This document shows, piece after piece, positions 27,280 through 64,000 of a stretch of DNA of 64,000 nt. Source of the stretch: Gautieria morchelliformis (taxonomy: Eukaryota > Basidiomycota > Agaricomycetes > Gomphales > Gomphaceae); NCBI GenBank assembly GCA_015179125.1, contig WHVA01000037.1:1-64000 (forward strand). The letters are read 5' to 3'. Made by a program: the position numbers and the translations under genes. The notes under the pieces were generated by a model that was not told the origin of the DNA, searched no databases, and saw nothing but the letters and a program-made list of their open reading frames with translations. How positions within the stretch are numbered: the stretch's first letter is position 1; each line of letters begins with the position of its first letter.

Positions 27280-27349
27280 TAACAATTTCTTCAGGGGTAA
27301 GATCTAGAGGTCTGAAATTGCCTGATTGGTCTCTGAATACCTTTGACAG

Positions 27350-28197
27350 TGGCCACCATCAATGGTGTTACTGTAACCCTTTTTGACACTGGAGTTGTGA
27401 TAGTAACCATTCTGAGCTCAATTCAAACCCTGAGGCTTTGGCAGAAAGGTGATATTTGGGATAAGAATTCTCTCATTAGTCTAGTGATTTACCAAGGTGA
27501 GCATACAACATAGTGCATATATATATGGACATGTCACTAATCTCAGATAAGGCTTTGTCAGATATGGGTATGGAATATTATTCCTGTTATATTTCATATG
27601 TCTGATTTATATTCAGATTTGTGCTTACCATTACTTTAGCTAATACTATTATATCTAAGGTCTTGTTACCTATAAATGTGTTAAGCTTTGAGAGCTTACT
27701 CTGTCTTCTTTTACATTTCAGGTATTGAGAGTAGGTAAGACATTGATCTTGATAATAAAAATGGCTAATGTCAGCTCCTTTGTTGTATAAAGCCAAGCCT
27801 TGGTGGCATCTTAAGCCCCCTTCAGAACAGGTATATTTTCAATGAGACAGACATGTGATCATACTAACCATGCACATACAGCTTGTCCACAATTATCATC
27901 TGCCGCTTTCACCTAGCTCTCCAAGAGAGACACACACAACTTATCAGCCCCTCATTACCCACTCTTTCATTCTCCACCTTCCAAGCAGCCAGACAAAGTG
28001 TTCACAATGCCATAGTGGCTGAATTTGGGAACCCACAGGTTTTTGGTGCTGAGACCTTGCAAAACAATGTGGCTGATCAGGAGTTCCATCTGTCTGAAGA
28101 AGCTAGGTCAGCTGGGATAGAGTTAGAGGAGTTCCCTTGGGCAACTGGATATTCTGGACATGTAGAACTGGTGGGCCCTGTTGTGTCCAGTGAGTGA
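27350..28197 (+). pseudogene. DUF6533 gene, copy A (3' half only)
   Basis: Only the C-terminal half survives at the left border of the array. A membrane-segment exon reads VATINGVTVTLFDTGVVIVT then ILSSIQTLRLWQKGDIWDK. Further exons encode LTITLANTIISKVLLPINV-like sequence and a last exon with CRFHLALQERHTQ, ending VGPVVSSE at 28197. The FDxxVVxxT/LW and CRFxLxLxE blocks match the last membrane segment and C-tail of DUF6533 proteins, multi-pass membrane proteins of unknown function found in mushroom-forming fungi. There is no N-terminus, so it is a truncated copy. Confidence 0.75.
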
Positions 28198-31100
28198 TTT
28201 GGGTCTCCATCAGGCACTCATTAATAGCTTGGTAGAATCTGGAAGAGCAGCAGAGGCTTAAGGATAGCATGCAAACTAATGCATCATAGACACAATTCAA
28301 ATACAAACCCCACAGCAATCAAGATGCAGCAACTTACCTTAACCATCCCATTCTCACCTTTCCAATCTATTGCAGCACTTTCCAATTGGTCGCCTTAGAC
28401 GTTGTGGTGATCTGCTCACTCTGGCCACTCCATACTGTCAAAATAGTAGATACATATGCATATATGTATATGCTGCGAAGCTTCAAATTTGCCTTTGTTC
28501 GTAATTTGTTATTACTTTGCTTGATGTATGTACCGCTTGTCCACTAAGCTCATGACTGCGCCGAACGCCCTGCCACACGAGAGTATGCAAAACCCCATTG
28601 TAATACGCACGAATATCAGCAGCGCTTGGCCCAGGTGAAGTCTGGCATCACATTACAATGAGTTTAAACTGTGGGATACCACGACGTACCCGATCCATAT
28701 GATGGACGCTGATATTGCAGTGGCACGAGCAGGAGTATATTTAAACTCCACGCAAGCACCGTACGGTGTTGATGCGCATAAGTATACACAGATATGCCAA
28801 AAGCGATAGGCTCGCTGCGTGTCCGTGTGTCTGTCTTCAAGTCTCAAGGCGTGATACATGAAACCATCGTCACCTTGATTGCGCGATGCAATTTTCTGCC
28901 TGCCGCTGTACCTCCGGCACTCGACTCATGAGTGATCCCGTGGCCCTGATCCACCACCAGCCAAGCAGGCGGTTCACAAAGTGACTTACGACTGTCACTT
29001 TTGCTTGCGCCGCTGTGCGGCAGGGGTTACGCGTTGGGCGGGAGAACGTGCACGGTTTCGTTTCCTCGGGGGAGGGCCGGGAGGAATGGTGGTGATGGGT
29101 GATGGGTGGTGGGTTCACGAAGCCTCGTTGCATCATGCGTGTATTTTCCCACGCGGCGGCGGGGGGGTTAAGAGGGTGCGGCGGTGCGGGACGGGCGATG
29201 TGGCGAGTGCAGCGGCGGGGAAGCTTGTAAGGGCAGCGTTGGGTGCAGGCGTGACGGAGTGAGGGTGAGGTGCGGGCCGCATGTGAGGCCCTGGGGGCGC
29301 TGAAGCTGATATGGGTACGGTTGTTGCTTTCGTCGTCGGCAGTGGCGTGTGTGCTGGGATGGGTGGATGTGCGCCGTGGCAGCATGCCAGGATCGGGCGA
29401 ATGTGGTGTGCTGTTACCCACCGCCATGCCCAGCCGCGGCGAGCCGGATGGCCCGGTGTGGGCGACGCCCCCACAATGGCTCACCTCGACGCGTCACCCG
29501 CGGGGGCAGCGCTCTCCAGACCGCTTCCCGCCTCCCGAGGATCGTCCACCGCCGCGTCAATGCACGTGTCTGTTCCCAGCCGACATAAAACTCGCGGTCG
29601 CCCGCGCCGCTAAACTCCCTTTCCAGGCCATCTTGAAGTACTAACGTCGTCTGGGGTATCCTCGCGCCAGCCTTTCAGCGTGCCCCGTCCCCGCCCCAAA
29701 CCGCTCCCTGTTCAGTCCTTGCACGCGCCCCCTGCCCTCAGAAACACACGCGCCCGCACACGGAACCACGCGGACATCCCGTGCCACGCGCTCCAGTTGC
29801 ACATTCCTCTCCAGCTCTCTCGCGGCGTCGCGCACATGCCTCGCACGGTCACGGTGCGTCCTCCAAGGCGAACCGCGTGCCGCTTCCTGAGGCATCGTGG
29901 TCGTGCGGATCGTGCTGGAAGGGGCCGCTGCTTGGGGGACCGGTAGGAAACATCTTCATGAGCTCGTCCTCGTGGGCGGGGGGTGGGGCATGGGGAGGGA
30001 GATGGGGGACGTGAGGGGCGTGAGGGCTGAGTCTAAGGAGAAGAGGGTCGTTGGGTAAAAGGGAGGAGGCACTGGTGGATGGGACGTACCATGATGTGGG
30101 GCGCGGTAGAATGCAACTGACTACATAAAAATACAATTATGTGAGGCCCGGGTGAGCCGCTGCAGAACAAGTTAGAAGTAGCATTTGATCAGGATGTGCG
30201 CGTGGACAAGGCCAGCATTGGCAACAATGATCGAATCGAGGAAGACCGGGAACCTGCGACTCGATAACTTTCCGTCAAAATCCCAATTCCTAAGCACATT
30301 AAAGCTAAAAGCTCCGCCCGGTCCCCGTCCATCACCTTTCTAGCCATAATCAAAGTTTATAACTGACAGGCCTGACAGCTGGCATCACATCCTGCCCAAT
30401 CTGGACATCAACACCCTCTACAACTGCTGACCCAGGAAGGCGAGATCGCGCTCCAGCCCCGGCCCCAGGTCCCAGCGCCGCTTCGCGGGGGCTCGTCCCC
30501 GGTGCGTCGCCAATCGCGGCGCGCTCCCTGCTGACATGAAAGTCGGGCTCGGCCGCGCCGCTGAACTCCCGTGCCTGAGCCGTCTTGAAGAACTCCCGCC
30601 GTCTGGAGGCGTCGGTGTCGTCGCGGGCGCGTCCGCCTTTGAGCATGCGCCCGGCCCCATCTCCGCCCCCGCCGCCCCGAAAAACGCGCGCTCCTGCGTG
30701 CCAAACCACGCGGACGTCCCGCGCCACGCGCCGCAGCCGCACTCCAGCTGCCTATTCTGCTGGAGCTCGTCCCGGGCATCATACGTCTCCCACAGGCAGC
30801 GTGCGTCCTGCGCGGGGAAGCCCCTCGCGTCGCGGTGGGCGTGGGTCGTGGGGGAAGGAGCAGCCGCTCGGGGACTGGTTGGGAAGAGCTTCATGAGCTC
30901 GTGGCCGATGGCCGGTGCTGGGAAGGGCCGGGCGCGGGGCGGGAGAGTAGGGTGTTAGGGAGCAGCGAGTGGCGTTCGGTACGAGACACGCGGGACTGGG
31001 CGACGGGACGTACCATTGCCTAAAGTGGGGTTGTGTCTCCAGAGGCTGTGCTTGTGTCTGCGTCTGGGTCATGCTGGCGGATGGATGGATGGCGACATGG

Positions 31101-31476
31101 TGGAGAAGGCAGCAAACGCGTCATGCAGGATGGACGGGCTCTTTATATGCAAAGGGAAATACCGTATATTGCGCTCGTTCCCCTTGCTGACCACCCGGCA
31201 CATACACACCCACCCACCGTCCCCTCCACTGGAAGGCATACCGGAAACATCACTATAAGTTCATGGCCGTGGGCGGGAGAGGCCGGTGGGAGATATGAAG
31301 CCTGGGAGGGAAGGCTGGTAGCGTTGTGTAAGTGGACGGGTAAAGTACGTGGTAATGCCATGAAAGAAGAGTTTGTCTGTGTCCGTATCCGTGTCGGTGT
31401 CTGTGTCACGCCGCACGTTGTAACTGCAGCCGAGTCGGGCGTCGGTGTGCATGTTTGTCTTTGTTTTGGGCATGGG
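28198..31476 (-). other. GC-rich part of unit A: two diverged minus-strand copies of an unrecognised gene
   Basis: After an AT-rich spacer (to about 28650) the unit becomes GC-rich. On the minus strand two related copies can be traced, at about 29500-30136 and 30350-31410. Both carry a Pro-rich leader (TSWYVPSxSxxxLxPN, then HxxELMKxFPT), a block QLE..AWRGTSAWFGTQERAFFGAAG (clearest at 30418-30894), and a region EFFKTxxAREFS. The FxxQExxFFxxAG pattern resembles a motif I have seen in agaric proteins of unknown function. Frames shift along each copy, so neither reads through. A (CAGACA)n-like start MTQTQTQAQ is at 31072. Confidence 0.4.
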
Positions 31477-31481
31477 CGGCC

Positions 31482-31656
31482 TGTCGTTATCTGTCGATTA
31501 GTCAGCTCCCAGTAGCTACATAGCGGCTGAGTTCGAAGTTGGAATCTTACTCGTTGATTCCACCTTCGAACTCAGGTACGTGCACGTTGTCATCCTATAT
31601 AGAAGATAATAAGGACACTTACTCGTTGATTCCACCTTCGAACTCAGGTTCTGACA
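31482..31656 (+). repeat. Copia element 2, 5' LTR
   Basis: 175 bp, TG...CA, flanked on the left by TSD CGGCC and on the right by the primer site. Confidence 0.95.
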
Positions 31657-31724
31657 GGTTATGGGCCCCGTGCCTTAATCGAAGGAAAAAGAATCCATCC
31701 GAGCCTTAACCACCATCTCCTATT

Positions 31725-34700
31725 ATGTCGGACTCAGAAACCGAAAACCGCGCGAGAGGCACCAAACTCACGAGCCCCAACTACAACACGTGGATGGTTG
31801 AGATGCAAGGAAAGTTGATGACCATCAACGCGTGGCGAATAGTCACGGAAGACTCGAAGAAGCCAATCGAAGCAGCGCTAATAGAAAAGTGGTTAATGAA
31901 AAGAGAAGAAGCCGCCGGTATCCTCCTGAAGTCGTTGTCCCACACACAGTACGTCCACATCGAGGGCGTGATGGATGATCCAGTTGAGATGTGGAAGAAA
32001 CTGAAAATGGCTCACTGATCCCAAGTGGCGAACAGCCGATTCTACGCAATACAGAAACTGCTGAACATACGAAAGGAGGACCCTGAGTCCCTTACAGACT
32101 ACATCACCCGTGTAAACGCCGCAATGAACGATCTCATAGCTCTAGCACCCAGCGCTCTCACCGTCCAGAGCATCGTCGACGAAATCGGGATCCATGCAGC
32201 CATCGCAGGACTCGACCAAACCGAGTACGGCGCGTTCACCTCATCCCTACTCCTGATCAGCACACTCGATCGTACCACCGTCTCCACTGCCTTCAGGAAC
32301 GAGGACATGAAGCGCCAAGCAAGCCTAGCATTGTTGGGAGCAGCACTCACCATAGCCAGAGAAAAGAAGACCGTCGTTCCAACGTGCTCAGCATGCAGGA
32401 AGCGAGGCCACTCTGCAGACCAATGCTGGATCACGCATCCAGAGCTTTGACCTGCACGACAGAGACAGGACGGCCGGAATGCAAACCAAGCAAAAGAGAG
32501 CGTGCCAAACCCAGTGGTGCAAGAACTTGCCGGGAACGCGAGTCTACGATCCCTCCACTCGTCACCTATCAGCAGCAACGCTGATCTACATTGGAATACT
32601 GATACAGGCGCCACTAGCCATATGACGCCACACCGTCATTGGCTTCGAGACTACGAGCCATACCGCGTACCCATTCGACTGGCGACAAACGAGATAGTGT
32701 ATTCAGCCGGGAAGGGACGGGTCCTATTTGCGCCGATGATAGATGGAAGAACAGGGTGAAACATTATTTTCTTGAAAGTCCTACACGTACCAGCCCTCCA
32801 AAACAACCTGCTCGCTGTCCTACATCTCACTACACATCATGAGTTCCAAGTCAGTATCGTGAGAGACCGCATCTCGTTCTTCCAAGATGGGAACCTGCGC
32901 TTCTATGCCGCAGTACAGAATGGTACGGGTTTCCTGATTGGGAACACTATACCCGACCCAGAACATACCTTTACTGCCTCATCGTCGCCTCTAGAAGATC
33001 GCTCCTTATGGCACCAACGCCTTGCACACATCGGATCGGCACGTCTGGATAAGCTGTTAGAGAACAACATGGCCCATGGGATTCAAATAAAATCAAAGAA
33101 AACTCTGCCAGCTATCTGTGAGCCGTGCATCGCTGCAAAACAACACCGCAATCCTTTCCCAAAAAGGACCGATAACCGCGCCTCGAAGCCACTCGACCAT
33201 GTTGTATCAGATGTACACGGACCACTGCCAGTTCGCTCAGCGACCGGCCATCGATACTGGATAACGTTCACGGATGACCACACGAGATACAGATGTGTGT
33301 ATCTCCTGAGAACGAAAGACGAAGCTTTCGATGCATACTGCGCGTACGAAGCCTTTGCTGAAAACCAAACGGGCGAGAGGGTGAGAAGGTTCAGAGACGA
33401 CAAAGGTGGGGAGTACATAGGCAAGAAATGGGACGAGCACTTCAAACGTCGAGGTATCATCCATGAGCATACCACAAAAGGTACACCACAACAAAACGGG
33501 ATCTCGGAGTGCACAAACCGTACTCTCATTGAAGGTACAATTGCGCTACTACAACAAGCTCACCTGCCAGCGATGATGTGGGGGGACGCCCTAAAACTGC
33601 TAGTACGCATCGTTAACGCCACCCCAACCTCAGCACTCCCAAACATGACGCCGTACGAAGCTTGGCATGGCCAAAAACCGGATCTAGGAATGCTTCGAAC
33701 CTTTGGATGCACGGCCTATGTCCACGTGCAGAAGGAAGACCGGACCGGACTGCAACCAAGAACCCGAAAGTGTATCTACCTCGGTTTCGAAACTGGGTAC
33801 AAGGGCTGGCGCTGCCTTGACCCTGTCACGAAACGCACCATCATCTCTCGGGATGTCATATTCAATGAATCCGAATTCCCAGGACTATCCACCTCGAGCT
33901 CCACTGACCAAGAATCACTCCTACCTGCATTTCCACTCCCGAGAGAAGTCACTGCTCCTCCAGACGTCGCACAAGAACCACAGGATCCAAACCCTGACCC
34001 TGAACCCCTCAACGACGACCACGAAAACCTCCCCATCCCTCAAATCCCTGAACCACCACACTTGCCCATTGATGAGCCCCGCCGTTCAAGCAGGAACACA
34101 GCCCGAGTTGACTACCGCCAGCTTCATGACCCATTTTTCAGGCCACGCCCACCACCAGACCTCGATTCGGACCCTGACGGGGGCGCAGCAATAATTGCAT
34201 CCATCATCGAGGCCCTGGGATTCGTCCACGATGGACCAATCGCTGTCAGCAGCAACATGCCACCATCAGGTACCATTGAGATAGCTCTGAATGCGACAAT
34301 CAAGGATGACAGAGTCCCAAGAACCTTCGCAGAAGCAATGCGACGATCTGATAGCCAACTATGGAAAGAATCAACAGACACTGAAATCCAAGCGCTTCTA
34401 AACAATGGAACATGGGAACTGGTAAAACTACCACCGGGAGAAAAAACCATCGGATCAAGATGGGTGTTCCGAATTAAGCTCCACTCGAACGGATCCCTGG
34501 ACAAGTACAAGAGCCGTCTAGTGGCAAAAGGGTATACCCAACGGCCAGGTATTGACTACGATGAGGTTTTTGCTCCCACAGCGAGATGGGCCGCCTTGCG
34601 TACTATACTGGCGCAAGGAGCACTTCAAGGAGCGCACATCGAGTCAGTAGACATCTCGAACGCCTATCTTAATGGAGTACTAGGTGACGATGCAAATATA

Positions 34701-35822
34701 TACATGGATCAGCCGGAGGGATACCACCAAGGAGGTGAAGACTGTGGTACGAGGCTTGGGGCCGCACTGGAAAGCATAAGCTTCAAACGTCTCCAATCTG
34801 ACCCGAGCGTTTACATTTGGGCGAGCGGCACCACAAAGATTGTCATCCCTGTTTTCGTTGACGATCTAACCCTAGTATCGAACTCCAAACAGGATCTCAA
34901 CCGAGTAAAGAACGAACTCGCCAAGATATTCAAGTTGAAGGACCTAGGAGAAATGACATCGCTATTGGGAGTGGAAGTAAACTACAACCGCTTGAAAAGG
35001 ACGCTGAAACTATCGCAAAAACAATACATACAAGACATCCTAAACCGTTTTCACATGATGGAGTGTTGCCCAGTTTCGACACCCATGACTCCCGGCCTGA
35101 ACTTGAGCTCAGCAATGGGTCCATCAACCCCAGAAGAAGTCGAAGAAATGCGGAATACACCGTACCTAAACGCAGTCGGCGCGCTGAATTATCTCGCTAT
35201 AGCGACTCGCCCCGACATCGCATACGCCGTCGGATGTCTTGCCTGTTTCAACTCGAACCCCGGTCCCGCCCATTGGGCGGCCGTGAAGCACCTGCTGCGT
35301 TACTTGAAAGGAACCATGGATCTAGCACTCACCTTCGCCCCCAACGACTCGACTGAGACGTTCCAAACGTGGACGGATGCTGATCACAGCGGGAACTTAG
35401 ATAACGGCAGGTCGACCTCTGGATTCCTCACAAAGATCGGGACAGGAGCTATCAGTTGGGCTAGCAAACTGCAAAACATCGTCACCCTCTGCACAACGGA
35501 AGCAGAGTTCGTAGCGGCAACCCTAGCCGGAACTGAAATCATGTGGTTACGGAACCTGTTCGATGAACTCGACTTGAAGATCGAGAAGCCGTCCTACCTC
35601 TACATAGACAACCAGTCCGCCTTATCCGTAGCGAAAAACCCCGAGCACCATGGCCGTATGAAACACCTTGACCTTAGATTCTTCTGGTTACGGGAGAAAG
35701 TCGCACAGAAAATAATTCAAGTGAAGTACGTACCCACGAAGGATATGCCGGCGGACCTCTTAACAAAAGCATTGCCCCGTGAGGCGATGGAGCGGCATAG
35801 GCATGCCATGGGACTTTTCTAA
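31725..35822 (+). pseudogene. Copia element 2 gag-pol (fossil)
   Basis: The gag begins MSDSETENRARGTKLTSPNY with an N-terminal domain, then a CxxC-type zinc knuckle (CSACRKRGHSADQCW). Pol shows a GAG-pre-integrase block (LWHQRLAHIGSARLDKLL), an integrase core (HVVSDVHGPLPVRSATGHRY and FRDDKGGEYIGKKW), the reverse transcriptase lead-in (WVFRIKLHSNGSLDKYKSRL), the YxDD-type box in FVDDLTLVSNS, and RNase H (DADHSGNLDNGRSTSG, TTEAEFVAATLAG). The last long part, 32772-35822, is open. The order protease, integrase, RT, RNase H is that of copia and not gypsy. It is not expected to yield an active polyprotein. Confidence 0.9.
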
Positions 35823-35850
35823 CTGGGAGATTGCCTGCGTCAGGGGGGTG

Positions 35851-36025
35851 TGTCGTTATCTGTCGATTAGTCAGCTCCCAGTAGCTACATAGCGGCTGAG
35901 TTCGAAGTTGGAATCTTACTCGTTGATTCCACATTTGAACTCAGGTACGTGCACGTTGTCATCCTATATAGAAGATAATAAGGACACTTACTCGTTGATT
36001 CCACCTTCGAACTCAGGTTCTGACA
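35851..36025 (+). repeat. Copia element 2, 3' LTR
   Basis: 175 bp, nearly identical to the 5' LTR. It is preceded by a purine tract (CAGGGGGG) and followed by TSD CGGCC. Confidence 0.95.
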
Positions 36026-36098
36026 CGGCCCGCACACGATGAAAGCTCTCTTCGCTCAGAATTATCAGTATCGTAGCGGCGGCGGCTTCCGCCTCAGT

Positions 36099-36776
36099 CC
36101 CCGACTCTCTCCCTTTGGAGACTGAAAACAGTTTACTAACGTGCGTACTAACTGTCGATGACGAGAATTAGCGCCGATCCACTGGATCGGTGCAATATGT
36201 ACGCGTGGCGGAATTGGCGCGCCATTCCCAGATAGTTGCCAACCGGAGTCAAATTCCCAGCCCTAAGGTAGTCCAGGTCAAAGCCCTACTGTCATCCATG
36301 AGCAGCCCCTTCGAAAAACACGGGAATGATCATCCATTTTTCACAATGTGGATGATCCCATGTTGATAAACGAATGCAGGGCGGAAAACCAAAAAAGGTT
36401 GAAGGGGATCCCCCCAGCAGGCCGGAAAACGCAGCGAATCAAGACGCTTCCGAAGGCCGTGCCAAAAAGCCAGGGATGGAATACCCACTCTGCCAAGGGA
36501 GGATGGGTGGGGAGGGGATGACGAATTCCTTGGGCGGCACAAAGGGCTTAGAGCAGGGTGGTAAAGGGAGGTCGGCGCCAGCGAGGCTGCCGCGCGGGAT
36601 GACAAAAGAAACGCGCGACACCCCGTGAGACACGGAGAAACCACCCCCCCCCCTAAACAGGAAAAAACCGGTAGGAAGGCCCATCCAATTAAATCAATAC
36701 GAATTCATCCGCATAACCGTGATCACAGTTATTCGGGCTCGTGCAAACCCTCCCTCTCCTTCGGAGAGAGTCGGGG
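36099..36776. mobile_element. 678-bp TIR element in unit B (MITE-like)
   Basis: The ends are a perfect 14-bp inverted repeat, CCCCGACTCTCTCC at 36099-36112 and its complement at 36763-36776. Comparison with units C and D shows that the sequence between AGTATC (about 36073) and CGGTCTATAAG (about 36778) is absent from them, so this is an insertion. Some 25 bases to the left of the repeat also belong to the inserted segment, so the true end may lie a little outside. No transposase is encoded; frames inside are short. The family and TSD length were not determined. Confidence 0.7.
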
Positions 36777-37734
36777 ATCCGGTCTATAAGTGAAATTCGA
36801 TGGGAATGCCGTTTATATCTAGATAATGTCTGTATGTTTTACTCTGGATCCAACCAGGTTAGCTTGTTACTGGTGTTCCAAGGGTGCCGACATCATTCAC
36901 GACAGGGGCAAATTTTTCCAATCTGAATTATTGAATGACTCCGAAAACATGCCAGGCTTCCAATACCTTTTATTCTCGCTAGGTCTCACGTTCCCCGTTA
37001 TAATAATATCATACTCAACAACACTTCAAACACATCGCAGATCACCTCAATAGCTTCCTGAGCTCTACATCACCGATACACCGAATGCACAATGTCACGA
37101 TGTCATTGTGCTCCCAGTTTAAATTCGATGGTCTCTTCATACGACCTCTTCTCACGTCGTACAGGACATGCCACCAAAATGAGAAACGTCTCGTGTCCCA
37201 ATATCCAGCAACATTGACACGAGCTGGTGTTTCTGCTGAGATTATCCAGCATCGCTATAGAATTACAACTACGTGCCAGCTCTTGGCGTTGAACTCGACA
37301 GCCTAGATCTCATATCATGTCGCTTCCTTGTGTTCTCATCTTCATGAGTAACACATTGAAGATGCGACATCTTGATACACATCAGTGAGCTGTGTCGCAG
37401 TTGGTTTTTGTAGTGTTCCACTGACATTGCACTGTGAGTCGTCAATGAGTGCCCAGTGTGCCTACATGACAAGTTTATGTGGACCTTGGGGGCCTTTCCG
37501 CACAGGCAAATCGGATGTAATGACCAATTCCGGGCAAGAACCCAAGCGTCAATTGCTTGCCCGTCCCCGGCTAACTCTATCTGATGCCATCATGCGTAGA
37601 TGTTGTATTGCCAACGGAAATTCTTTTACATAGAATGTTCGTTCATCAGACTACCCACAGTTGTGCGATGCTTGGGCACTGATTTAGGATGCTGTGAATA
37701 TCTGTTGACCTGGCAGCATCGATGGCCAGAATCT

Positions 37735-37740
37735 TATATA
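37735..37740 (+). promoter_or_regulatory. TATA box of DUF6533 copy B
   Basis: TATATA lies 94 bases before the ATG at 37829. Equivalent boxes are at 53946-53953 (copy C, 93 bases) and 63324-63329 (copy D, 88 bases), all within a conserved upstream stretch. Confidence 0.5.
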
Positions 37741-37828
37741 TAGACCTTCGCAATCTGGTACTCCATTTCCCACATCGCTACGCAGAACTGGGTTCCTCGT
37801 CTGCATCCCAATTTTGATTTCTTATATT

Positions 37829-39572
37829 ATGTCTCAGGCGGACGCCTCGGCTGTTATCCAGGGCCTATCAGACAAGTCCGTACTTGCTACATTGAGTGCG
37901 ATGCAAAACAACTTACCTGAACTAGCTTTGCGTTCAACTATACTGCCTTCGCGGGGCTTGGTATGCATACATGTCCCCTCTAATTCCACAAGTTCCATGC
38001 CTTGTTCCACAGCACTATTCTGCTTCGACACGCCTCTCACACTGCCATCTGAGATCAGCCACATTTGGTGCAAGACCGTCAGGCTCGGCACCATTCTCTA
38101 TTTACTTGCTCGTTACATGCCCTTGGTTTTGCTTCTTGCTGAGATATATGTTATCTTATCTAACATTTCCGCTGAGGTGCATTATGTCTGTGGATCTCAT
38201 GTGTGACACCCCTACTGATTTGAATGAGTATCTAGTATGACTTTCATTCCTCATGCAAAAGCAACCCAGAGACTGATATATTTGGAGGAATGTAATGCTA
38301 TCATTCACCTCAGTGGTGCTTTTGGTGTTCTTTCTCTCATTGGAGTACAGGGTGAGTGATTATACCCATATATTTCTGAAGTAGAAAGATCCAACACAAT
38401 TTACATGTCTAGGCCTACTGCTAGCTCGCACCTATGCTATTTCCCTTCAGAATCAAAGGGTTTTGGGTGTTCTTGGGCTGCTTATTCTTGGTGCTATTAT
38501 CACTCAAGTGGTATGTGCCTGTGTAGACTTTGTATAAATAGCATAAATTCATTTCACTGGATATAGTATCAGTCTGTTTGGGACAACTGCAATATGACTA
38601 GTTCACAATTTGATATATTCACTTTGTCAGTACTGACTAGGGCTTTCTGCCTAGATTTATACTAACAAATTCTTCAGGGGTAAGATCTAGGGGTCTGTAT
38701 TTGCCTGATTTATCTCCGAATACCTTAGACAGTGGACACCATCAGTGGTGTTACTGTAATCATTTTTGACACTGGAGTTGTGATAGTAACCTTTCTAAGC
38801 TCAATTCAAACCCTGAGACTTTGGCGGAAAGGTGAGATTTGGGATAAGAAATCACTCATTAGTCTAGTGATTTACCAAGGTGAGCATATAACATATTGCT
38901 ATATATGGCCAGATCACTAATCTCAGGTAAGGTCTTGTCAGATATGGGTATAGAGTATTATTCCTATGATATTTTATTTGTCTGATTCATATTCAGATTT
39001 GTGCTTACCATTACTGTAGCTAGTACTATCACATCTAAGGTCTTGTTACTTATAAACCTATTAAGGTTTGAGAGCTTACTCTGTCTTCTTTTACATTTCA
39101 GGTATTGAGGGTATGTAAGACATTGATCTTGATAATAAAAATGGCTAATGTCAGCTCCTTTGCTGTATAAAGCCAAGCCTTGATAGTGTCTTATCCTCTT
39201 CAGAACAGGTATCTTTTCAGTGAGAAAGACATGTGATTGTACTAATGCACATACAGCTTGTCAGCAATTATCATCTGCCGCTTTCACCTAGCTCTCAAAG
39301 AGAGACATGCTCAACTTATCAACCCCTCATTACCCACTCTTTCATTCTCCACCTTCCAAGCAGCCAGACAAAGTGTCCACAATGCCAGAGTGGCTGAATT
39401 TGGGAACCCACAGACTTTCCATGCCCAGACCTTGCAAAACAATGTGGCTGATCAGGAGTTCCATCTGTCTGAAGAAGCTAGGTCAGCTGGGATAGAGTTA
39501 GAGGAGTTCCCTTGGGCAACTGGATATTCTGGACATGTAGAACTGGTGGGCCCTGTTGTGTCCAGTGAGTGA
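37829..39572 (+). pseudogene. DUF6533 gene, copy B
   Basis: Full-length copy aligned with copy C. Exon 1 is MSQADASAVIQGLSD; exons 2-3 give FAFNYTAFAGLALFCFDTPL followed by TLPSEISHIWCKTVRLGT. DUF6533 is the domain around FDxxLTLPxEIxxIW in fungal multi-pass membrane proteins. Compared with C and D, the exon around YIWR carries an in-frame stop and a one-base deletion, so this copy is likely dead. Downstream exons are preserved: the ARTYAI segment, the IFDTGVVIVT segment and the C-tail CRFHLALKERHAQ, ending VGPVVSSE at 39572. Start chosen by the conserved MSQxDA context in all three copies. Confidence 0.7.
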
Positions 39573-41280: not shown

Positions 41281-41285
41281 GGACA

Positions 41286-41510
41286 TGTTAGTAATCGGGA
41301 CGATGATACGGCCGAGGCAGAGCCGGCACGCACTTAGCCGGAGGTTCGAGATCGCTCTCGACCCCGGGATGCTGGTGCACCGGCACGGCATCGGCACAGC
41401 ATCAGCTCAAAGGATTGGTAATATAGGAACATCATAATTAGTATATAAGGGCAGATGATCTTGTATAGATTGTAGAATAACAAGTCTATTATTTACTCCT
41501 TCATTCCACA
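41286..41510 (+). repeat. Copia element 3, 5' LTR
   Basis: 225 bp, bounded by TSD GGACA on the left and the primer site on the right. It is the uninterrupted reference for the Helitron target: CATAA^TTAG at 41437/41438. Confidence 0.95.
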
Positions 41511-41600
41511 GGTTATGGGCCCCGGCCATAACTAAACTACTACAGACCTAGCTTACTCCAACTACGCTCTATACTCCAAACGACTCAATACCGATCGACA

Positions 41601-48114: not shown

Positions 48115-48119
48115 CATGC

Positions 48120-50656: not shown

Positions 50657-50997
50657 GATGAAAGCTCTCTTCGTTCAGAATTATCAGTATCTGGTCGATA
50701 AGTGTTTGAACTTCGATGGGAATGCGTCGTGTATCTACGTAATTTCGTTTATTTTTTACTCTGGATCCAAGCAGGTTAGCTTGTTACCGGTATTCCAAGG
50801 GAGCTGACAACGCCGACAACTACAACTTTTCCCAACCAGAATTATCGAATGACTGCAAAAACAGGCCAGCCGTCCAGTACCGTTTATTCTCGCTAGGTCC
50901 CATGTTCCCTATCCTAATAATATCACACTAAACAAAACGTCGCAGGTCATCTCAGTAGCTTCCCGAGCTTTCCTTAGGCACCAGGCACAGCACTATA

Positions 50998-53381: not shown

Positions 53382-53945
53382 TATATTGCCGTCACCGCCG
53401 ATACACCGAATGCACAATATCTCGGTTACCATGTTATTTCCCATGTCAATATTTTATGGTCTCTTTCTACGACCTCTTCCCACGTCGCACAGGACATGCC
53501 GCCAAATGAGAAATTTCTCGTGTCGCTATATCCATCAACATTGACACGAGCTGGTATGTCTGCAGAGACCATTCAACATCGCTATTGAATTACAGATACA
53601 TGAAAGCTCTGGCGATTGAGCTAGATCTCTCATATCACCTCGCTTCATCATGTTCCCCTCTTTATAAGGAACACACCGGATACGCCACATCTTGATACAC
53701 ATCAGTGAGCTGTCTCGCAATTGCTTTTCATGTGGTGTTACACTGACACTGCACTGTGTGCCTACATGACAGGTTTATATGGACACAGGCAAATCGGATG
53801 CGATGACCAATTTCTAGCAAGAGTGCAAGCATCAACTACTCGCGCCTGCAGGGCTACCCCTGTCTGACGCGTTGAAGTTGTACTGCTAACTGATATAGGA
53901 TGCTGTGAATATCTGTTGACCTGGCAGCACCCATGGCCAGAATCT

Positions 53946-53953
53946 TATATATA
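53946..53953 (+). promoter_or_regulatory. TATA box of DUF6533 copy C
   Basis: TATATATA 93 bases before the ATG at 54039, conserved in copies B and D. Confidence 0.5.
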
Positions 53954-54038
53954 CACCTTCGCGATCCGCGACTCCAACCCCCCATCGCTACTCAAAGCTT
54001 AGTCCATCGTCTGCATCCCAGTTTCTCTTTCTTATATC

Positions 54039-55782
54039 ATGTCTCAGGCGGACGCCTTGGCTGTTATCCAGGCACTATCAGACAGGTCCGCACTTACTAC
54101 ATTGAGTGCGATGCAAAACAGCTTACCTGAACTAGCTTTGCGATCAACTCTGCCACCTTCGCAGCGCTTGGTATGTGTACATTTCCCGCATAATTCCACG
54201 TGTTCCATACCTTGTTACACAGCACTACTCTTCTTCGACACACTTCTCACACTGCCATCTGAGATCAGCCACATTTGGTGCAAGGCCGTGAGGCTCGGCA
54301 CCATTCTCTATTTACTTGCTCATTACATGCCCTTCGTTTATATCTTGCTGGGATATATGTCAACTTATCTAACATTTCCACTGAGGTGCATTACATCTAT
54401 TGTTCTCATGAGTAACCCCCCTACTGATTTGAATGAGCATCTAGTAAGACTTTCCTTCCTCATGCAAAAGCAACCTAGAGACTCATATATTTGGAGGAAA
54501 TGTAAAGCTATCAATCACCTCAGTGATACTTGCACTGTTCTTTCTCTCATTGGAATACAGGGTGAGGGATTATACCCCTATATTTTTCAGGTAGAAAGAT
54601 CAACACAATTTACTTGTCTAGGCTTACTGCTAGCTCGCACCTATGCTATTTCCCTTCATAATCAGAGAATTTTAGGTTTTCTTGGGCTGCTTATTGCTGC
54701 TGCTATTATCACTGAAGTGGTACACCCCTGTGTAGACTGTATAAAGAGGATAAATTCATTTCACTGAATATAGTACCGCTCTGTTTTGGACAATTGCAAT
54801 ATCACAATTTTAGAAGTCAATAGATGGACTTTGTCAGTACTGACTAGGACTTTCTGCTCATATTTATACTAACAAATTCTTCAGGAGTAATATTTAGGGG
54901 TCTGTGGTTGCCTGATTTGTCTCTGAATACCTCTGACAGTGGCCACCATCAATGGTGTTACTGTAATCCTTTTTGACACTGGAGTTGTGATAGTAACCAT
55001 TCTGAGCTCAATTCAAACCCTGAGGCTTTGGCAGAAAGGTGATATTTGGGATAAGAATTCTCTCATTCGTCTAGTGATTTACCAAGGTGAGCATGCAACA
55101 TATTGCATGTATATATGGTCATATCACTAATCTCAGATAAGGCTTTGTCAGATATGGGTATGGAATATTATTCCTATGATATTTCATATGTCTGATTTAT
55201 ATTCAGATTTGTGCTTACCATTACTGTAGCTAATACTATTATATCTAAGGCCTTGTTACCTATAAATGTGTTAAGCTTTGAGAGCTTACTCTGTCTTCTG
55301 TTACATTTCAGGCATTGAGGGTATGTAAGACATTGATCTTGATAATAAATCTGGTTAATTTCAGTTCCTTTGTTGTATAAATCCAAGGCTTTGTGACATC
55401 TTAACCCCTCTTCAGAACAGGTATATTTTCATTGAGAAAGACCTGTGATTGTACTAACAGTGCACATACAGCTTGTCAGCAATTATCATCTGCCATTTTC
55501 ACCTAGCTCTCAGAGAGAGACACTCTCAACTTAACACCCCCTTATCATCCACTCTTCTATTCTCTGGTCAGACAAAGTGTTCACAATGCCATAGTGGCTG
55601 AATTTGGGAACCCACAGGCTTTTAGTGCGGAGACTATGCAAAATAATGTGGCTGACCAGGACAGCCAGCAGTCAGAAGAGGCTGCTATGATATCTGGGAT
55701 AGAGTTAGAGGAGTTCATTTAAGCAACTGGATATTCTGAAGATGTAGAACTGGCAGGGCCTGTTGTGTCCAGTGAGTGATTT
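54039..55782 (+). CDS. DUF6533 gene, copy C (best preserved N-terminal half)
   Basis: Exons 54039-54085, 54136-54170, 54223-54335, 54386-54411, 54479-54561 and 54622-54719 splice in phase to 134 codons. The product reads MSQADALAVIQALSD, FAINSATFAALALLFFDTLL, TLPSEISHIWCKAVRLGTIL, YLLAHYMPF, then WRKCKAINHLSDTCTVLSLI and LLLARTYAISLHNQRILGFL, then a membrane segment. These match DUF6533 around FDxLLTLPxEIxxIW and the ARTYAI helix. Later exons give VATINGVTVILFDTGVVIVT and ANTIISKALLPINVLSFESL. The last exon has lost about 16 bases relative to A and B, so the C-tail differs. Intron 1 and 2 have no stop in the ATG frame, so unspliced reading gives a false N-terminus. Function unknown. Confidence 0.7.
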
Positions 55783-56084
55783 GAGTCTCCATCAGGCACT
55801 TATTAATAGCTTGGTAGGATCTGGAAGAATGGCAAAGGCTTCAGGATAGCATGCGAGCTAATGCATCATAGCCGCAATTCCAATACAAACCCCACAGCAA
55901 TCAAGATGCAACTTACATTACCCATCCTGTTCTCACCTTTCCAATCTATTGCAGCACTTTACACTCGGTCACCACAGAAGTTGTGAAAATAGTAGATATA
56001 TACATATATATGTATGCTGTGACTTCAAAGTTCCTTTGCTTGTAATTTATCATTAGTTTGCTTCATTAATGTACCACTCATCTA

Positions 56085-59000
56085 TTGATGCTGGGAGTCA
56101 GTCCACTGTGTGCCAGTTGGAGAATTGCACCCTGAGGAATATGGAGGGATGGGCTCAGCTGAGCGCTCAGAAAGGGACTGCGGGGGGTGCCTGTGCCTGT
56201 GCCTGTGCCTGCCTGGGATCCTGACCTCATCTGAAGGATATGTTCAGTTATGTTATTTGTAAACGCTATGAGGCATACCATACCGTAATCACATTCTTAT
56301 GTGCCAGGCCATCTTACATCAGGGGCTCAGGATGCATCTGTGCCAACACTCCAACATGCACGTTCACAAATATTCACTGTCTCCTTACCCAAACCTCCCT
56401 CCGAGATTTGGCACCCTTTGCCTTTGTGGGTGGCTGTGGCCTGTGCCTGACATTTGGACCCCTTATCCCTTTTCCACCACCCATTTTACCTGGCCCTCCC
56501 CTGAACCGTTGTCCGATCGTCCCTCCCACCCCTACTGCCACTTTCTCCATCCCTTTTCCACCAACCATTTTACCCAGCCATCCCCTGAACCGTTGTCCGA
56601 TCATCCCTCCCACCCTACTGCCACTTTCTCCTCCACCTCCATCTTCCTTTCGATATCCAGGTAATCATTTCCCCCCTGCCGTCTGCTACTTGGAGCAGCG
56701 AGCATCGGGTGGATCTGTGAGCATCGGCAGGAGGTGCCAGCATGTTGTGTCTTCTCAATCAAACTCTCCGGACTTCCATCTCCATTCCTCTCCTCCAATG
56801 TTTTCTTACGACTTTCCCTGCATGTCCTCTGGATTTCCCTCACCTTCACAGACTATGGTGGTTACGCAAGTAAGCACACTGTTCTCATCCCTGCCTCACG
56901 CCCCTTATCCCTTTTCAGGTTGTCTGCACCTTTACCGGGCCCTTTGCTCTCCCGTTATCAGACACGGACCTCCCTCCCCTTTCCCCTTTCCGGCTAAGCG
57001 ACCCCTCTGTGCTGTCTCCATGGCCCGTGCCTTCGCTCGCTGGTTGGTGCTGGATGTGCCCTATCGACACTTGGTCTTTGCGTTGACGTACATTCATGAC
57101 TCCTCATTTGGTATGATCTCCTTAATCTCCTGGTAACCCATATAGCGAATAGGTGTCTGGCACACGACCTTATGAGCCTCAAGTTTCACCTCACTCACAG
57201 TGTGCGCCAGATGTGGGCCTCAAGTCTCACCTCATGCTGGCTGGACAGTGTGCCACCATTCACACCGAAGGTGATACGGCCCCGGACTTTCTAATGACTA
57301 ACTTATGAGTGATGCCCATGGGTTCAGGTGAGATCTCTATACTTTTATAACATACCCCCCAGTAATGCCAATGCCTTCAGGTGGGATCTCTGTACTTTTA
57401 ATGTACCCGTGTCCCGTCCTTTCTGCCCCCACCATCCAGCCTCTGACGCTTCATGGCCACATTACCTGAAAACATCTGCCAGATACGCCTCTGCCCCCCT
57501 TTGGCCTTTGAGCTGTCTCTTCACATGCTGCATCCTCCATGTCTTTGCCTGTGGCCCATGTCTCTGATTGACTTTGTCCTCTGCACGGTGCTTCATACCG
57601 GGAGCAGACAACTGACCATTGACCAATCTGGTTCTGTTGACGATTCTGAGAAGGATGCAAGAATTGCCCACAGAAGGTCAAGGTCCACTGTTTCTCTCGG
57701 AAGAGCCCATGTGACCTCCCGACATTACATAAATTGGGTGAAGGCAATTCTTTCTATTTTGTGCTGATCTTCCACCGCCCCTCAACATCTATCATGCAGC
57801 TAAGGGAGCTCACTACTGAGAATGCAACCATCATGTCTACACTGCATGCGTACCCTTAGATCTTTCTGTGCTTCCGGTGTCAAATTTGCTGACACCGATA
57901 TGCCAGCGTCCATGGCTTTCAGCGATCGCAGAAACTACCTTCCCGTGAGCTTGGTCATGGAACCCTCACACTTGAGGAGCTGAGCCCCAACAGTAAGGGC
58001 CTGAAGAAAGAAGATAAACGCAAGCCAAACTAGTTCCAATGCAGGACGACTGTCGTGATACTAAATCCGAGTCCAAGACTCATAAGAGGCCAAACAACTC
58101 CAGAGGGAAGCGGAAGGCAGGTTAATACTAGAATATAGCTATCATACCTGCCAATGAGTGCTACACATCAGTTGTAGAAGGTTAGTGCTAATGTTGACCA
58201 TCTCATGTTGAACACTTGCCTATTATCTTAGTCGTGATGCAATGCAGCTTTGTCATCCTCTGTCTACTGTGACTATGAAGAACCTGTTAAGGGTACTTAA
58301 GGTGAAGTTATTGCTTCATGATGAAAGTATTATTGTCTTGCTCACAGTGCATCAGTGGAAGAAAGAATCGCCCTATGGCAACACAGAATGGATTGATGAA
58401 GAAATCAGTGCCTTTGAAAGCACTATCCTTGATTTTGGCCCCGAGCTAAGGACCAAGGCACCATGAGGACTTTACCTGAGGTTGTCTGCCACATTCGAAG
58501 CCCTCAAGGCGGCCTTCAGGACCGCTGCGCTGGCCGAAACATATCACCCATATGACAGCCAGTTCTGGGATCACCAAGGATGCAAAGGAGGTGGGAAGAA
58601 TGAAAGTTGTCACCATCAGTGGTCAATATGCAGCTTTTGGGAGGACACAGCCTTGATAGTAAGCCAGACTGTCTTTGTTTATGGACCAATTCCTAACACG
58701 TGGGCTCATGCCCAAAACCACTGTGCTAAAATCATAATGATAATACTGGGAAATGGTTTTCCCTGCAATAAAGACTCACTGTTTGCTTTACATTTTGTCC
58801 CCAGGGAAAAGCTGGGTAATACCATGTATTTATTTATAAATATTATCATTTTGCTAAGATCTTGCAGGTCAGCAAAATCCATTTTGAACCTGATGTTTTT
58901 ACCCAGTCTTGCCATGACAAACAACCTACTCATAAGACTACATTTTCTCAAGCTTTTATTTAGAGTTTTACCTGTCTGAATCTGATGATTTGGCTTGGAT

Positions 59001-59470
59001 TTTCATGCGAGGCCAAGTTATTGGAGAATTCACAGGTTTGTTATGGTTTTCCCTGCCCAAAATATTATAATATAATCCAACCACTTTTTCCAGTTTTATT
59101 AAGGGTTTTTCCTGTGGGAGAACCTTCCTATGCCCCCAGTGTGGAACAAGAATAAGCTGGCGCGAAGGGCCGGCACCTCTTGTAGCATCAAGAATAATGG
59201 TCACCATTGATCACAGGCTGTCCTATGGTCCAGGATACAGGTGTCGGTGTCTGAGATGCAATTTGGCAGAAGTATACTCCCAATGCCAGTTCCTGATCCA
59301 ATATGAAAGCGTCTGGCCCATGCCGCACCGGCATTGAGAAATGCACTTCGTTCCTGTGGTGGAGTGCTGTCACAGCGCAGGAAGAGAAGTATGACAATGA
59401 AGGCTCTCCCGCCCACACCTGGGCTGTGGTCTGACTCAGCCTATGCATATCCCCCATAGTGGTAAGGTCA
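56085..59470. mobile_element. 3.4-kb insertion in unit C with TIR-like ends
   Basis: Units A and B run straight from the GTACC..TTGTCCACTAAG spacer into CATGACxGCGCCGAACG. Unit C has about 3.4 kb between these points. Near the left end is GCTGGGAGTCAGTCCAC and near the right end its approximate complement GTGGTCTGACTCAGCC, suggesting terminal inverted repeats set in some bases from the borders. Inside lie a Pro-rich tandem duplication (56460-56640), frames at 56240-57136 and 58242-58466 without recognised domains, and TTTTCCCTG words repeated near 58750, 59045 and 59110. Family and TSD are not determined. Confidence 0.5.
56460..56640 (+). repeat. Tandem duplication, about 75 bp x 2
   Basis: The phrase CCCCTGAACCGTTGTCCGAT, with its flanks CCCTTTTCCACCA and CCCTCCCACCC, occurs twice in a row with small differences. 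Confidence 0.85.
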
Positions 59471-62366
59471 TAAGCCCATGACTGCCTTGAACACCCTGCC
59501 AGACGGGAGTAGGAAAGACCCTATTGTGATGTGCACGCATGGAGTCTGGCATCACATTAAAATGAGTTTAAACTGAGGGAGACCACGACGTATCCGATCC
59601 ACATGATTGACACTGAGATTCCAGTCGCACGAGCAGAGTGTATTTGAACTCCATGCGAGCACCATACAGTGTGGATGGGCATAAGTATACACGGATATGC
59701 CAAAAGCGATAGGCTTGCTGCGTCTCTGCGTGTCTGCCTTCAAGCCTGAACTGATACTTGAAGCCATTGTGACGACTGCGGGACGCGATTTGCTGCCTGC
59801 TGTGCCTCCAGCACTCGACTCATGAGTCATCCCGTGGTCCTGGTCCAACGCCAGCCAAGCAGGCGGTTCACAAAATGACTTATGGGCGCCACTTTTTGCT
59901 CGCACCGCCATGCGGCAGGGTTGCGCATTGGGCGGGAGAACATGCGCGGTTTCGTTTCCACGGGGAGGAAAGGTGGTGGTGGGTGGTGGGTTCACGAAGA
60001 TGCGTTGCATGTAATTTCCTGCGCGGCGGCGTGGGGTTAAGGCGGTGCGGCAGTTCGGGATGGACAATGTGGCGAGTGTGGTAGGTGCAACGTTGGGTGT
60101 GGGCGGGGTGGAGCGAGGGGTAGGTGCGGGCGTGTGTGAGGCGCTCGTGGCGATGGAGCTGATGTGGGAGCAGTTGTTGCTTTCGTCGTCGGCGGTGGCG
60201 TGTTTGTGCTGGGGTGGGTGGATGTGCGACGTGGCAGCGTGCCAGGGCCAGGTGGGGGTGGTGTACTGTTGCCCACAGCCGTGCCAAGCCCCCGTGATCC
60301 GGACCGCCCCAGCAGGGGTGATGCCCGCACATGGCTCACCTCCACGCGCCCGCGACACATCGACGTCACCTGCGGGGGCAGCGTTCTCCCAACCCCTGCG
60401 CCACTTCACGGAGGATCGTCCACCGCCAAGTCAATCGCCCAGCCGAGATAAAACTCGTGATCGCCTGGCCTGCTAAACCCGCTTGCCAGGCTGTCTTGAA
60501 GTACTGACGTCGTCTGGGGTGTCTTCGCGCCCACCTTTCAGTGTGCCCCATCCGCGCATCCAACCTGCATCCTGTTCAGGTCCCGCACGCGCTCCCTACC
60601 CTCAGAAATGCGCGCTCCTGGACGCGGAACCATGCGGATGTGCCGCGCCACGCGCCCCAGCTGCACATTCCTCTCCAGCTCTCTCATGCACATGCCTCGC
60701 ATTGGCACGGCGTGCCCTGCGCGGTGAACCGCGTGCGGATCATGCAGGAAGGAGCCACTTCTTGGTAGAAAACGTCATCATGAGCTCGTGCTCGTGGGCG
60801 GGGGCGGGGAGGCACGGGGAGTGCGATAGGGGACGTGAGGGGCGTGAAGGCTGGGGCCAAGTCTAAGGAGACCAGGGGCGTTGGCCAAAAGGGAGGAGAC
60901 ACTGTCGAATGGGACGTGCTATGAAGGAAGTTGGGTGCGGTAGAATACAACTAGCTACATGAAAGTATGTATAGTTTTCAGTTCAGCGTTGCATCTCAAA
61001 TGATGTGCGCACTTACGAGCCCTGACAAAAGTCGGCCACAGTCCGTCTCCGACTTTGCCAAACACTAGTTAGAAGTAGCATGGATCAGGATGTGGGCGTG
61101 TGGGTTGGACAAGGCCAACATTGGCAATGGAGGAAGACCGGGAACCTGCGACTCGATGACTGTCTGTCAAAATCCCAATTCCTTTCCTCGGAACAGCGAG
61201 CCGGTGACAGGGAAGCACATTATGTAAAGCACCGCCCAATCCTCGTCCATCGCCTTTCTAGCCATAATCAACATCTATAACTGACAGGTCTGACAGCTGG
61301 CATCACATCTGCCCAATTTGGACATCAACACCCTCTACAGGAAGGCGAGAGCGCGCTCCAGCCCCAGCCCCAGCCCCACGTGCCGCTTCGCAGGGCTCGT
61401 CCCCCAGCCCCGCGTCGCCAATCGCGCGCATGCGCTGCCCGCCGACATGCAAGTCGGCTCGACCGTGACGCTGAACTCCCGTGCCAGCTCCGTCTTGAAG
61501 AACTCCCGATGTCTGGAGGCGTCGCCGTCATTGTGGGCACGCCCACCTTGAGCATGCGCCCGGCCCTGTCTCCGCCCCCACCCCCGAACAACGCGCACTC
61601 CTGCACGCCGAACCACGCGGACGTCCCGCGCCATGCACCGTGGCCACACTCCAGCTGCCTATTCTTCTGGAGCTCTCCGGGCATACAGCTAGCACGGGTA
61701 GCGCCCCCAACGTTGCGGTAGGCGTGGGTCGTGGGGGAAGGGGCCGCCCCTGGAGTGACAGGTTGGGAAGAGAGCTTCATGAGCTCGTGACCGGTGGACG
61801 GGGGCGGGAAGGGCCAGCCGCGGGGCAGGAGGGCAGTGGGGGATGTGAGTGGTGGGAGGGTGGAGTCTAGCAAGTGGTGTTCTATACGAGATACACGGGA
61901 CTGGGCAACAGGACGTACCACCGGCTGGGTGGGGGTATATCTCCAGTGTCTGTGCGCGTGTCTGGGTCTGGGTCATTCTGGCGGATGGATGGATGGCGAG
62001 ACGAGGTGGAGAGGGCAGCAAACGCGTCATGCAGGTTGGACGAGCTGTTTATAGGCGAAGGGAGATACCGGAGACACCGTTCGTTCCCCTTGCTGGTCAC
62101 CCGGCACACACACACCCACTCCACCGTCCCCTCCACTGGAAGGCATACCGGAAACATCATACAAGTTCATGGCCGTGGGCGGGAGAGGGCGGTGGGAGAT
62201 ATGAAGCCTGGGAGGGAAGGCTGGTAGCAGTGTAGATGGGTAAAATGCGTGGTAATGCCATCAAAGATGAGGTCCGTGTCCATGTCCGTGTCTGTGTCAC
62301 GCTACCCTGAGTCAGGCATCTGTGTGCATGTTTGTCTTTGTTTGGTGGGTGGGAGTGCCCACACGA
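59470..62366 (-). other. GC-rich part of unit C: two minus-strand copies of the unrecognised gene
   Basis: Same arrangement as 28560-31476 in unit A. On the minus strand copy one (about 60366-60950) has the HxDDVFYQE-type leader. Copy two (about 61318-62160) reads STGHELMKLSSQ, QLECGHGAWRGTSAWFGVQE and SRHREFFKTELAREFSVTVE in successive frames. The conserved spacing and residues across three units suggest a once-coding gene; the frame changes suggest all copies here are now broken or heavily intron-bearing. Confidence 0.45.
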
Positions 62367-63411
62367 GACGAAAGCTCTCTTGGCTCAGAATTATCAGTAT
62401 GTGGTCGATAAGCGTTTATGAAATTTGATGGGAATGCGTCGTGTATCTAGGTGATGTCGTTTGTGTTTTACTCTGGATCCCACCAGTTACCGGTGTCCCA
62501 AGAGAGCTCACATGATTCACGACAGCTACAATTTTTTCCAATCTGAATAATCGAATAAATGCAAAAACATGCCAGGTACCGTTTATGCTGGCTAGGTTGC
62601 ATGGTCCCCATTCTAATAATATCACACTAGACAAAACTGCAAACATATCGCAGATCACCTCAGTGGCTTCCTGAGCTTTCCTGAGCCACTAGGCACAGCA
62701 CTACATCGCTGTCACAGCCGATACACCGAATGCACAATATCTCGGTTACCATGTTATTTCCCATGTCGATATTTGATGGTCTCTTTCTACGACCTCTTCC
62801 CATGTCGCACAGGACATGCCACCAACTGAGAAAATTCTCGTGTCACTATATCCACCCCATTGACACGAGGCTGATCTGATATGTCTGCAGAGACCATTCA
62901 ACGTCGCTACAGAATTACAGATACATGAACTCTGGCGATTGAGCTAGATCTCTCATACCGTCTCACTTCCTCGTGTTCCCATCGTAACCCACTGTAGATG
63001 CGTGATCTTAATGCACAACAGTGAGCTTTGCCGGAGTTGGTTTTCATGTGTTGTTATTCTGACACTGCACAACGGGTCCATAATGAGTGCCAAGTGTCCT
63101 TACAGGACAACAAGATTTAAATGCATCAGGCAAATCCAGGGTAGTAACCAACTCCTGACAAGAAGCCAAGTACTCGCTGGATGATGCTTCTTTGTTGTAT
63201 TACTAACTTTAATTCTTTTATATGATGTTCTTCTATAAGCCCCATCCGCGTTGCAAATTGTGGCATGCTTCAGCGATGGTGTGAATATCTGTTGGCCTGG
63301 CAGCACCCATAGACAGAATCTGTTATATAGACACTCCGCGGTTTCCTACTCCAACCCCACATCGCTACGCAAAACTTAGTCCCTCCTCTGCATCCCAGCT
63401 CTTCTTGTATC
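62367..63411 (+). other. Upstream region of DUF6533 copy D
   Basis: The least interrupted version of the unit's upstream segment (1,045 bp), with no insertion. It serves as the empty-site reference for the TIR element at 36099 and the CACTG element at 50998. No gene is seen. A TATATA box is at 63324-63329. Confidence 0.6.
63324..63329 (+). promoter_or_regulatory. TATA box of DUF6533 copy D
   Basis: TATATA 88 bases before the ATG at 63412, in the same conserved context as copies B and C. Confidence 0.5.
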
Positions 63412-64000
63412 ATGTCTCAGGTGGACGCCTCGGCTGTTATCCAGGCGATATCAGACAGGTCCATACTTACTACATTGAGTGTGATGCAAAACAACTTACC
63501 TGAACTAGTTTTGCGATCAACTCTGCCAGCTTCGCAGGGCTTAGTAAGTGTACATGTCCCTTCTAATTCCATGAGTTCCATACCTTGTTACACAGCACTA
63601 CTCTTCTTCGACACGCTTCTCACACTGCCATCTGAGGTCAGCCACATTTGGTACAAGACCGTCAGGCTCGGCGCCATTCTTTATTTACTTGCTCATTACA
63701 TGCCCTTGGTTTCGTTTCTTGTTTGGATATATGTCCACTTGTCTAACATTTCCGCTGAGGTGCATTACATCTATGGTTCTCATATGTAAACCCCCTGCTG
63801 ACTTGAATGAGTATCTAGTATGACTTTCATTTCCCATGCAAAAGCAACCTAGAGACTCACATATTTGGAGGAAATGTAATGCTATCATTCACCTCAGTTA
63901 TGCTTTTGGTGTTCTTTCTCTCATTGGAGTACAGGGTGAGGGATTACACCCACATATTGCTCAGGTAGAAATACCAACACAATTTATTTGTCTAGGCCTT
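63412..64000 (+). CDS. DUF6533 gene, copy D (cut by right edge)
   Basis: The exons equivalent to 1-5 of copy C splice in phase: MSQVDASAVIQAISD, then FAINSASFAGL, then LLFFDTLLTLPSEVSHIWYK, TVRLGAILYLLAHYMPL, and DSHIWRKCNAIIHLSYAFGV followed by LSLIGVQ. The window ends just after the next acceptor (GTCTAG). As far as it can be read this copy carries no damage, and its second intron has the best donor of the family (GTAAGT). The domain is DUF6533, a multi-pass membrane protein of unknown function. Confidence 0.7.

Follow-up and report, generated by a model that had tools for sequence, protein, structure and literature searches.

A transposon-laden tandem array of DUF6533-type genes with a CpG-poor gene body in Gautieria morchelliformis

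The stretch of DNA analyzed here (the window, 64,000 nucleotides; positions 1 to 64,000 of contig WHVA01000037.1, assembly GCA_015179125.1, of the basidiomycete Gautieria morchelliformis) contains a series of direct repeats that, by self-BLAST of the window, spans from 27,263 to the window end at 64,000. The repeated unit (~5.7-6.1 kb of host DNA) carries a gene of the DUF6533 membrane-protein type, and the units lie head to tail, all on the + strand. Very probably this is an old tandem segmental duplication loaded with transposons, whose copies are decaying and have exchanged sequence with each other. Taken as an array it is well resolved and unremarkable, combining duplication, decay, exchange and a load of transposons. 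Its unexpected trait, and the part worth following up, is a CpG desert over the gene body.

The unit is made of three segments, D (upstream region and 5' exons), B (3' half of the gene) and C (a GC-rich spacer), that appear along the window in the order B1 C1, D2 B2 C2, D3 B3, C, D4. One copy is truncated at its 5' end, two have both gene halves and the fourth is cut by the window edge. Unit 1 starts in mid-gene with segment B (27,263-28,537; 91.9% identity to 38,646 onwards and 85.6% to 54,853 onwards), followed by segment C (28,545-31,473, 61% GC). Unit 2 has segment D at 36,783-38,645 (ATG at 37,829), B at 38,646-39,913 and C in a left part (39,921-41,285) and a right part with deletions (49,450-50,665). 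In unit 3 a first part of D (50,666-50,997) is separated from the 5' half of the gene (53,382-54,852, ATG at 54,039), and B follows at 54,853-56,078. The next segment C, between units 3 and 4 (59,471-62,358; against that of unit 1, 74.5% identity by BLAST and 83.5% in ungapped columns), leads to segment D of unit 4 (62,359-64,000, ATG at 63,412), with the 5' half of the gene cut by the window end.

The long self-matches have offsets of 11,383, 16,211, 9,376, 27,590, 19,550 and 30,926 bp, with 75-92% identity over 0.7-3.1 kb and some shorter pieces down to 60-66%. Subtracting the unit-specific inserts, mapped at their edges, turns the raw spacings of 11.4, 16.2 and 9.4 kb into 6,115, 5,652 and 5,981 bp (the first step becomes ~6,123 bp if the TG edge of the long terminal repeat, LTR, is used). 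The common orientation, the near-constant host spacing and the contiguity of the units are those of a tandem segmental duplication. An earlier note on this DNA had proposed a head-to-tail array of DUF6533-bearing units, and both the direct matches and the DUF6533 profile, matched in copies 2, 3 and 4, agree with it. The insert-corrected spacings it gave (5.75 and 5.93 kb) are close to the mapped steps. From its raw spacings, 11.7 kb does occur as an offset (50,060 versus 61,784), while 14.6 kb is absent among the matches listed. Units mismatch each other in 7-19% of aligned columns, and the first 27 kb of the window have no unit match of at least 150 bp.

DUF6533 (PF20151, curated Pfam cut-off 24.1 bits) is described in PMC10949477 as a region found in integral membrane proteins and specific to basidiomycetes. 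In the literature searched, DUF6533 is mentioned by 2 papers and PF20151 by 1. Open reading frame (ORF) pieces of copies 2, 3 and 4 score 37.4, 32.6 and 39.1 bits (E 2.7e-9, 8.4e-8 and 7.8e-10). A spliced model of the first five exons of copy 2 covers the whole 46-position profile, raising its score to 41.0 bits (E 2e-10). Copy 1, recognized by DNA similarity as the 3' half only, starts downstream of the DUF6533 part and lacks the domain; its last-exon ORF had no Pfam match.

In the part of the gene that holds the five 5' exons, exons and introns of the copies have diverged alike: 378/425 (88.9%) versus 271/309 (87.7%) identical positions for copies 2-3 (Fisher p 0.64), 297/332 (89.5%) versus 221/255 (86.7%) for copies 2-4 (p 0.30) and 297/331 (89.7%) versus 225/255 (88.2%) for copies 3-4 (p 0.60). 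Immediately before the ATG, the copies are 81-84% alike. The NG86 (Nei-Gojobori) ratio of nonsynonymous to synonymous substitution (dN/dS) was 0.80, 0.94, 1.01, 0.53 and 0.77 in five comparisons, with p against neutrality of 0.16-1.0 and limited power, and changes were about equal across codon positions. Furthermore, the last exon of copy 3 is broken by an 11-base gap and has a stop in the projected reading, and exons 3 and 4 differ in length by single bases among copies, which other splice sites might accommodate. This parity of exons and introns, the dN/dS near 1, the even codon positions and the disabled copies do not support the locus under selection that the earlier note had raised as a possibility. 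To judge from the sequence, the gene copies would be decaying pseudogenes or nearly so, probably without function, and the array has the look of a relic more than of a working gene that was amplified.

The copies also seem to have exchanged sequence. Aligning B and C of three units gave 653 two-against-one sites, with units 1 and 2 sharing the state at 345, units 1 and 3 at 186 and units 2 and 3 at 122. The sites shared by units 1 and 2 are concentrated at 27,944-29,792 (0.71 of the sites inside versus 0.35 outside), where the two other classes are depleted. The range statistic of the 1+2 and 1+3 classes was above all 5,000 shuffles and that of the 2+3 class had p 0.0006, in a test that overstates significance by assuming independence of adjacent sites. 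In 150-column blocks, identity between units 1 and 2 is 89-98% over ~27,863-29,783 and 70-96%, mostly 80-91%, elsewhere, and that between units 1 and 3 reaches 96-97% at 27,413-27,712. We read this mosaic as ectopic gene conversion or unequal exchange between units because the blocks switch partners, which local rate differences alone would not produce.

Segment C was also considered as a hidden gene and rejected as such: substitutions are spread almost evenly over the frames and multiples of three do not dominate among the indels, so it shows no sign of coding constraint. Four minus-strand ORFs in this segment matched no Pfam family except for one match (0.19) below cut-off, and two plus-strand ORFs gave no match or one (0.065) below cut-off. 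The segment has an internal degenerate duplication (seen in 28,545-31,473 and 59,471-62,358) with an offset of ~950-1000 bp and 61-64% identity.

Each unit was interrupted differently. A copia-type LTR element (31,482-36,025, + strand) is flanked by a 5-bp target site duplication (CGGCC), has an LTR stretch alike at 178/183 positions, matches Pfam RVT_2, SH3_retrovirus, rve and gag_pre-integrs and contains three internal in-frame stops. A copia-like polyprotein is also found (89% query coverage, 34% identity) in NZ_CP115454.1 and NZ_CP115302.1, two small records given as plasmids of Kitasatospora and Streptomyces, where it may reflect captured elements or contamination with eukaryotic DNA. Close to the first element lies an insert resembling a miniature inverted-repeat transposable element (36,072-36,782; imperfect inverted repeats near its ends, by eye) that is absent from units 3 and 4. 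A second copia-type element (41,286-49,447, + strand, target duplication GGACA, LTRs alike at 220/225 positions) is interrupted within its 3' LTR by a nested insert (45,723-49,374) with a 5' TC and a 3' hairpin (by eye) plus CTAG, located between A and T. We take this insert to be Helitron-like from the terminal rules of such elements. Part of it (47,578-47,943) matches positions 548-931 over 384 columns (87%), at the window's far left and next to or inside a copia gag region. The insert at 50,998-53,381, with CACTG...CAGTG ends and a 4-bp TATA target duplication, is a putative DNA transposon by CACTA terminal rules; two of its ORFs matched no Pfam family. Finally, a 3.4-kb block (56,079-59,470) is confined to the junction of B3 with its C, by insertion here or deletion elsewhere. 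LTR divergence (2-3%) is lower than the mismatch between units, and this mismatch together with the unit-specific inserts indicates that the duplications are old.

The probable history starts from one DUF6533-type membrane-protein gene and its GC-rich spacer (~6 kb), duplicated head to tail presumably by unequal crossing over. A break within the first copy would then have joined the array to the left flank with its aminopeptidase gene. The units diverged without detectable purifying selection, gained their own transposons and swapped sequence, through ectopic gene conversion or through recombination.

Some observations weigh against the decay part of this history. Copy 2, the most intact, is still open in the spliced model over the exons that could be placed, a model that leaves the middle exons unsettled. 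Copies 1 and 2 also keep an open last exon, and their dN/dS of 0.53 (147 codons, p 0.16) was, like the other values, obtained by projecting copies 1, 3 and 4 onto the columns of copy 2, which hides the single-base length differences of exons 3 and 4. This ratio, and the 1-3 points by which exon identity exceeds intron identity in each of the three comparisons, leave room for a possible weak constraint on the gene copies. The overstated significance of the shuffle test counts in the same way against the exchange. The units could be functional, diversifying membrane receptors or transporters in an array kept for dosage or variability. The profile is still matched in three of four copies, a dN/dS near 1 could mean diversifying selection, and SNB1 of C. 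cinerea, a DUF6533 protein with seven predicted helices, is required for fruiting-body differentiation and mushroom development according to PMC10949477. We find this improbable given the equal exon and intron identity, the truncation of copy 1 and the broken last exon of copy 3; in the same paper the snb1 family has 1-3 copies in most Agaricomycetes with no major expansions, although the array gene would be only a candidate for this family.

A 6-kb unit that is mobile or amplifying in its own right would fit with its repetition among transposons and with a gene body that is CpG-poor, as methylated repeats are. However, the units abut in one phase, unit terminal repeats or target duplications were not seen, and the first 27 kb of the window have no match of at least 150 bp to the unit, so that this origin appears highly improbable. 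An assembly artefact is hardly credible since the units differ in 7-19% of columns and do not share their inserts, three of which are flanked by a target duplication of their own. An old, decaying tandem duplication is thus the origin that we prefer.

The CpG desert sets the gene apart within the unit. The gene bodies of units 1, 2 (38,151-39,870) and 3 (54,291-56,078) contain 4, 5 and 9 CpG against 50.9, 69.8 and 67.7 expected (observed/expected, o/e, 0.08, 0.07 and 0.13), and the visible gene body of unit 4 has 1 against 10.3. Over 2,000 shuffles of unit 2 the count stayed at 48 or more. The 5' part of the gene, in contrast, has o/e of 0.71, 0.77 and 0.64 in units 2, 3 and 4, the four spacer pieces 0.71-0.99 and the neighbouring aminopeptidase gene 1.08. 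The desert extends from about +300 bp to just beyond the stop codon, and the spacer directly after it is spared in units 1 and 2. A depleted body with a spared 5' end is the pattern of gene-body methylation, here within limits picked after viewing the CpG profile. The window as a whole is uneven in this respect, with o/e 0.62 in the first 13 kb versus 0.94 at 13-27 kb.

None of the 13 CpG-bearing columns of segment B is CpG in all three copies (77 of 248 in segment C), which suggests that the loss is older than the duplications. Compared with other sites, CpG sites have a transition rate that is higher by 2.6- to 3.0-fold in C and 2.2- to 3.5-fold in D; in B it is 5.6- to 8-fold higher, from no more than 5 to 8 events per pair. 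All these ratios are inflated by counting as a CpG site any that is CpG in either copy. A TCG preference like that of repeat-induced point mutation was not found in segment C, where NCG to NTG changes amount to 0.09-0.13 for all four preceding bases (pairs counted both ways). Against a special status of the gene body, the 3.4-kb block after the unit 3 gene is also CpG-poor (o/e 0.40), so that a sharp 3' edge is visible in units 1 and 2 only, and positions 46,001-47,500 of the Helitron-like insert are equally depleted (o/e 0.12). The stretch may possibly have an earlier history as a methylated repeat.

A 2026 review (PMC13297926) states that gene-body methylation has been largely lost in fungi with some exceptions, and that CpG methylation in most Basidiomycota is restricted to transposon-rich regions. 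We would suggest, only tentatively and as a rather doubtful reading of the sequence, that the DUF6533 gene body of this basidiomycete might preserve the trace of CpG methylation that lay over it for a long time, before the gene was duplicated. If true, the DUF6533 family would be an exception to the fungal loss. Finding the same desert in DUF6533 genes of other mushrooms would point to selective gene-body methylation in a group whose methylation is described as mostly confined to transposon-rich regions.

At the left, unit homology begins abruptly at 27,263, within the gene. The neighbour is a multi-exon M17 leucyl-aminopeptidase gene (+ strand, from its ATG at 23,247 to ~25,800, an approximate end read by eye), identified by Peptidase_M17_N (E 0.0011, below the curated cut-off) and by Peptidase_M17 matches in another four ORF pieces, of which three exceed the cut-off. 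Self-BLAST detected a 216-bp partial copy (95%, + strand) of its middle (23,993-24,208) at 26,561-26,776, ~490 bp left of the array edge. Apart from this fragment the gene is single in the window. The start of the array inside a gene and its neighbour are as the earlier note had them. A break repaired with copied filler may be one reading of this edge. The idea of a subtelomere, also raised by the earlier note, found no support within the window: doubled TTAGGG or CCCTAA words are absent from its 64 kb (single words occur 6 and 5 times, respectively), the right end of the array being beyond it. A PDB search with three ORFs of the left flank had no match at E 0.01. Farther left are Plavaka transposase and DUF6698 matches (2,954-4,216 and 9,080-9,505), which together with DUF6533 are consistent with an agaricomycete, and a 34-bp tandem unit in five nearly identical copies (97% matches) at 18,574-18,743.

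Searches beyond the window provided no outside relatives of the array. Rfam at gathering thresholds gave no match, 30 pattern matches in bacterial and archaeal genomes included no relative, and two exact patterns and the copia protein had no match in viral contigs, where a single stretch passed for the DUF6533 piece but yielded no locus. Among the titles listed by literature searches none named such an array; PMC10949477 does not use the word 'tandem', and arrays are not mentioned in the one passage considered from PMC8955403.

Tandem gene arrays evolving by birth and death are known for ectopic gene conversion and pseudogenes. The array described here is like them in its head-to-tail units, mosaic identity and disabled copies, and unlike them in its heavy transposon load and nearly CpG-free gene body. 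With the Snowball (SNB1) type of basidiomycete membrane proteins it shares the domain, which copies 2, 3 and 4 match better than the curated cut-off requires; the genes here are in tandem and decaying, whereas the snb1 copy numbers given in PMC10949477 are low. As in CpG-methylated basidiomycete repeats, such as those of Agaricus bisporus (PMC7473861), CpG has been lost from repeated DNA and the CpG transition rate is raised. Unlike in those repeats, the loss is concentrated in the gene body and the equally repeated spacer is largely spared, a pattern that appears to resemble gene-body methylation more than blanket methylation of repeats.

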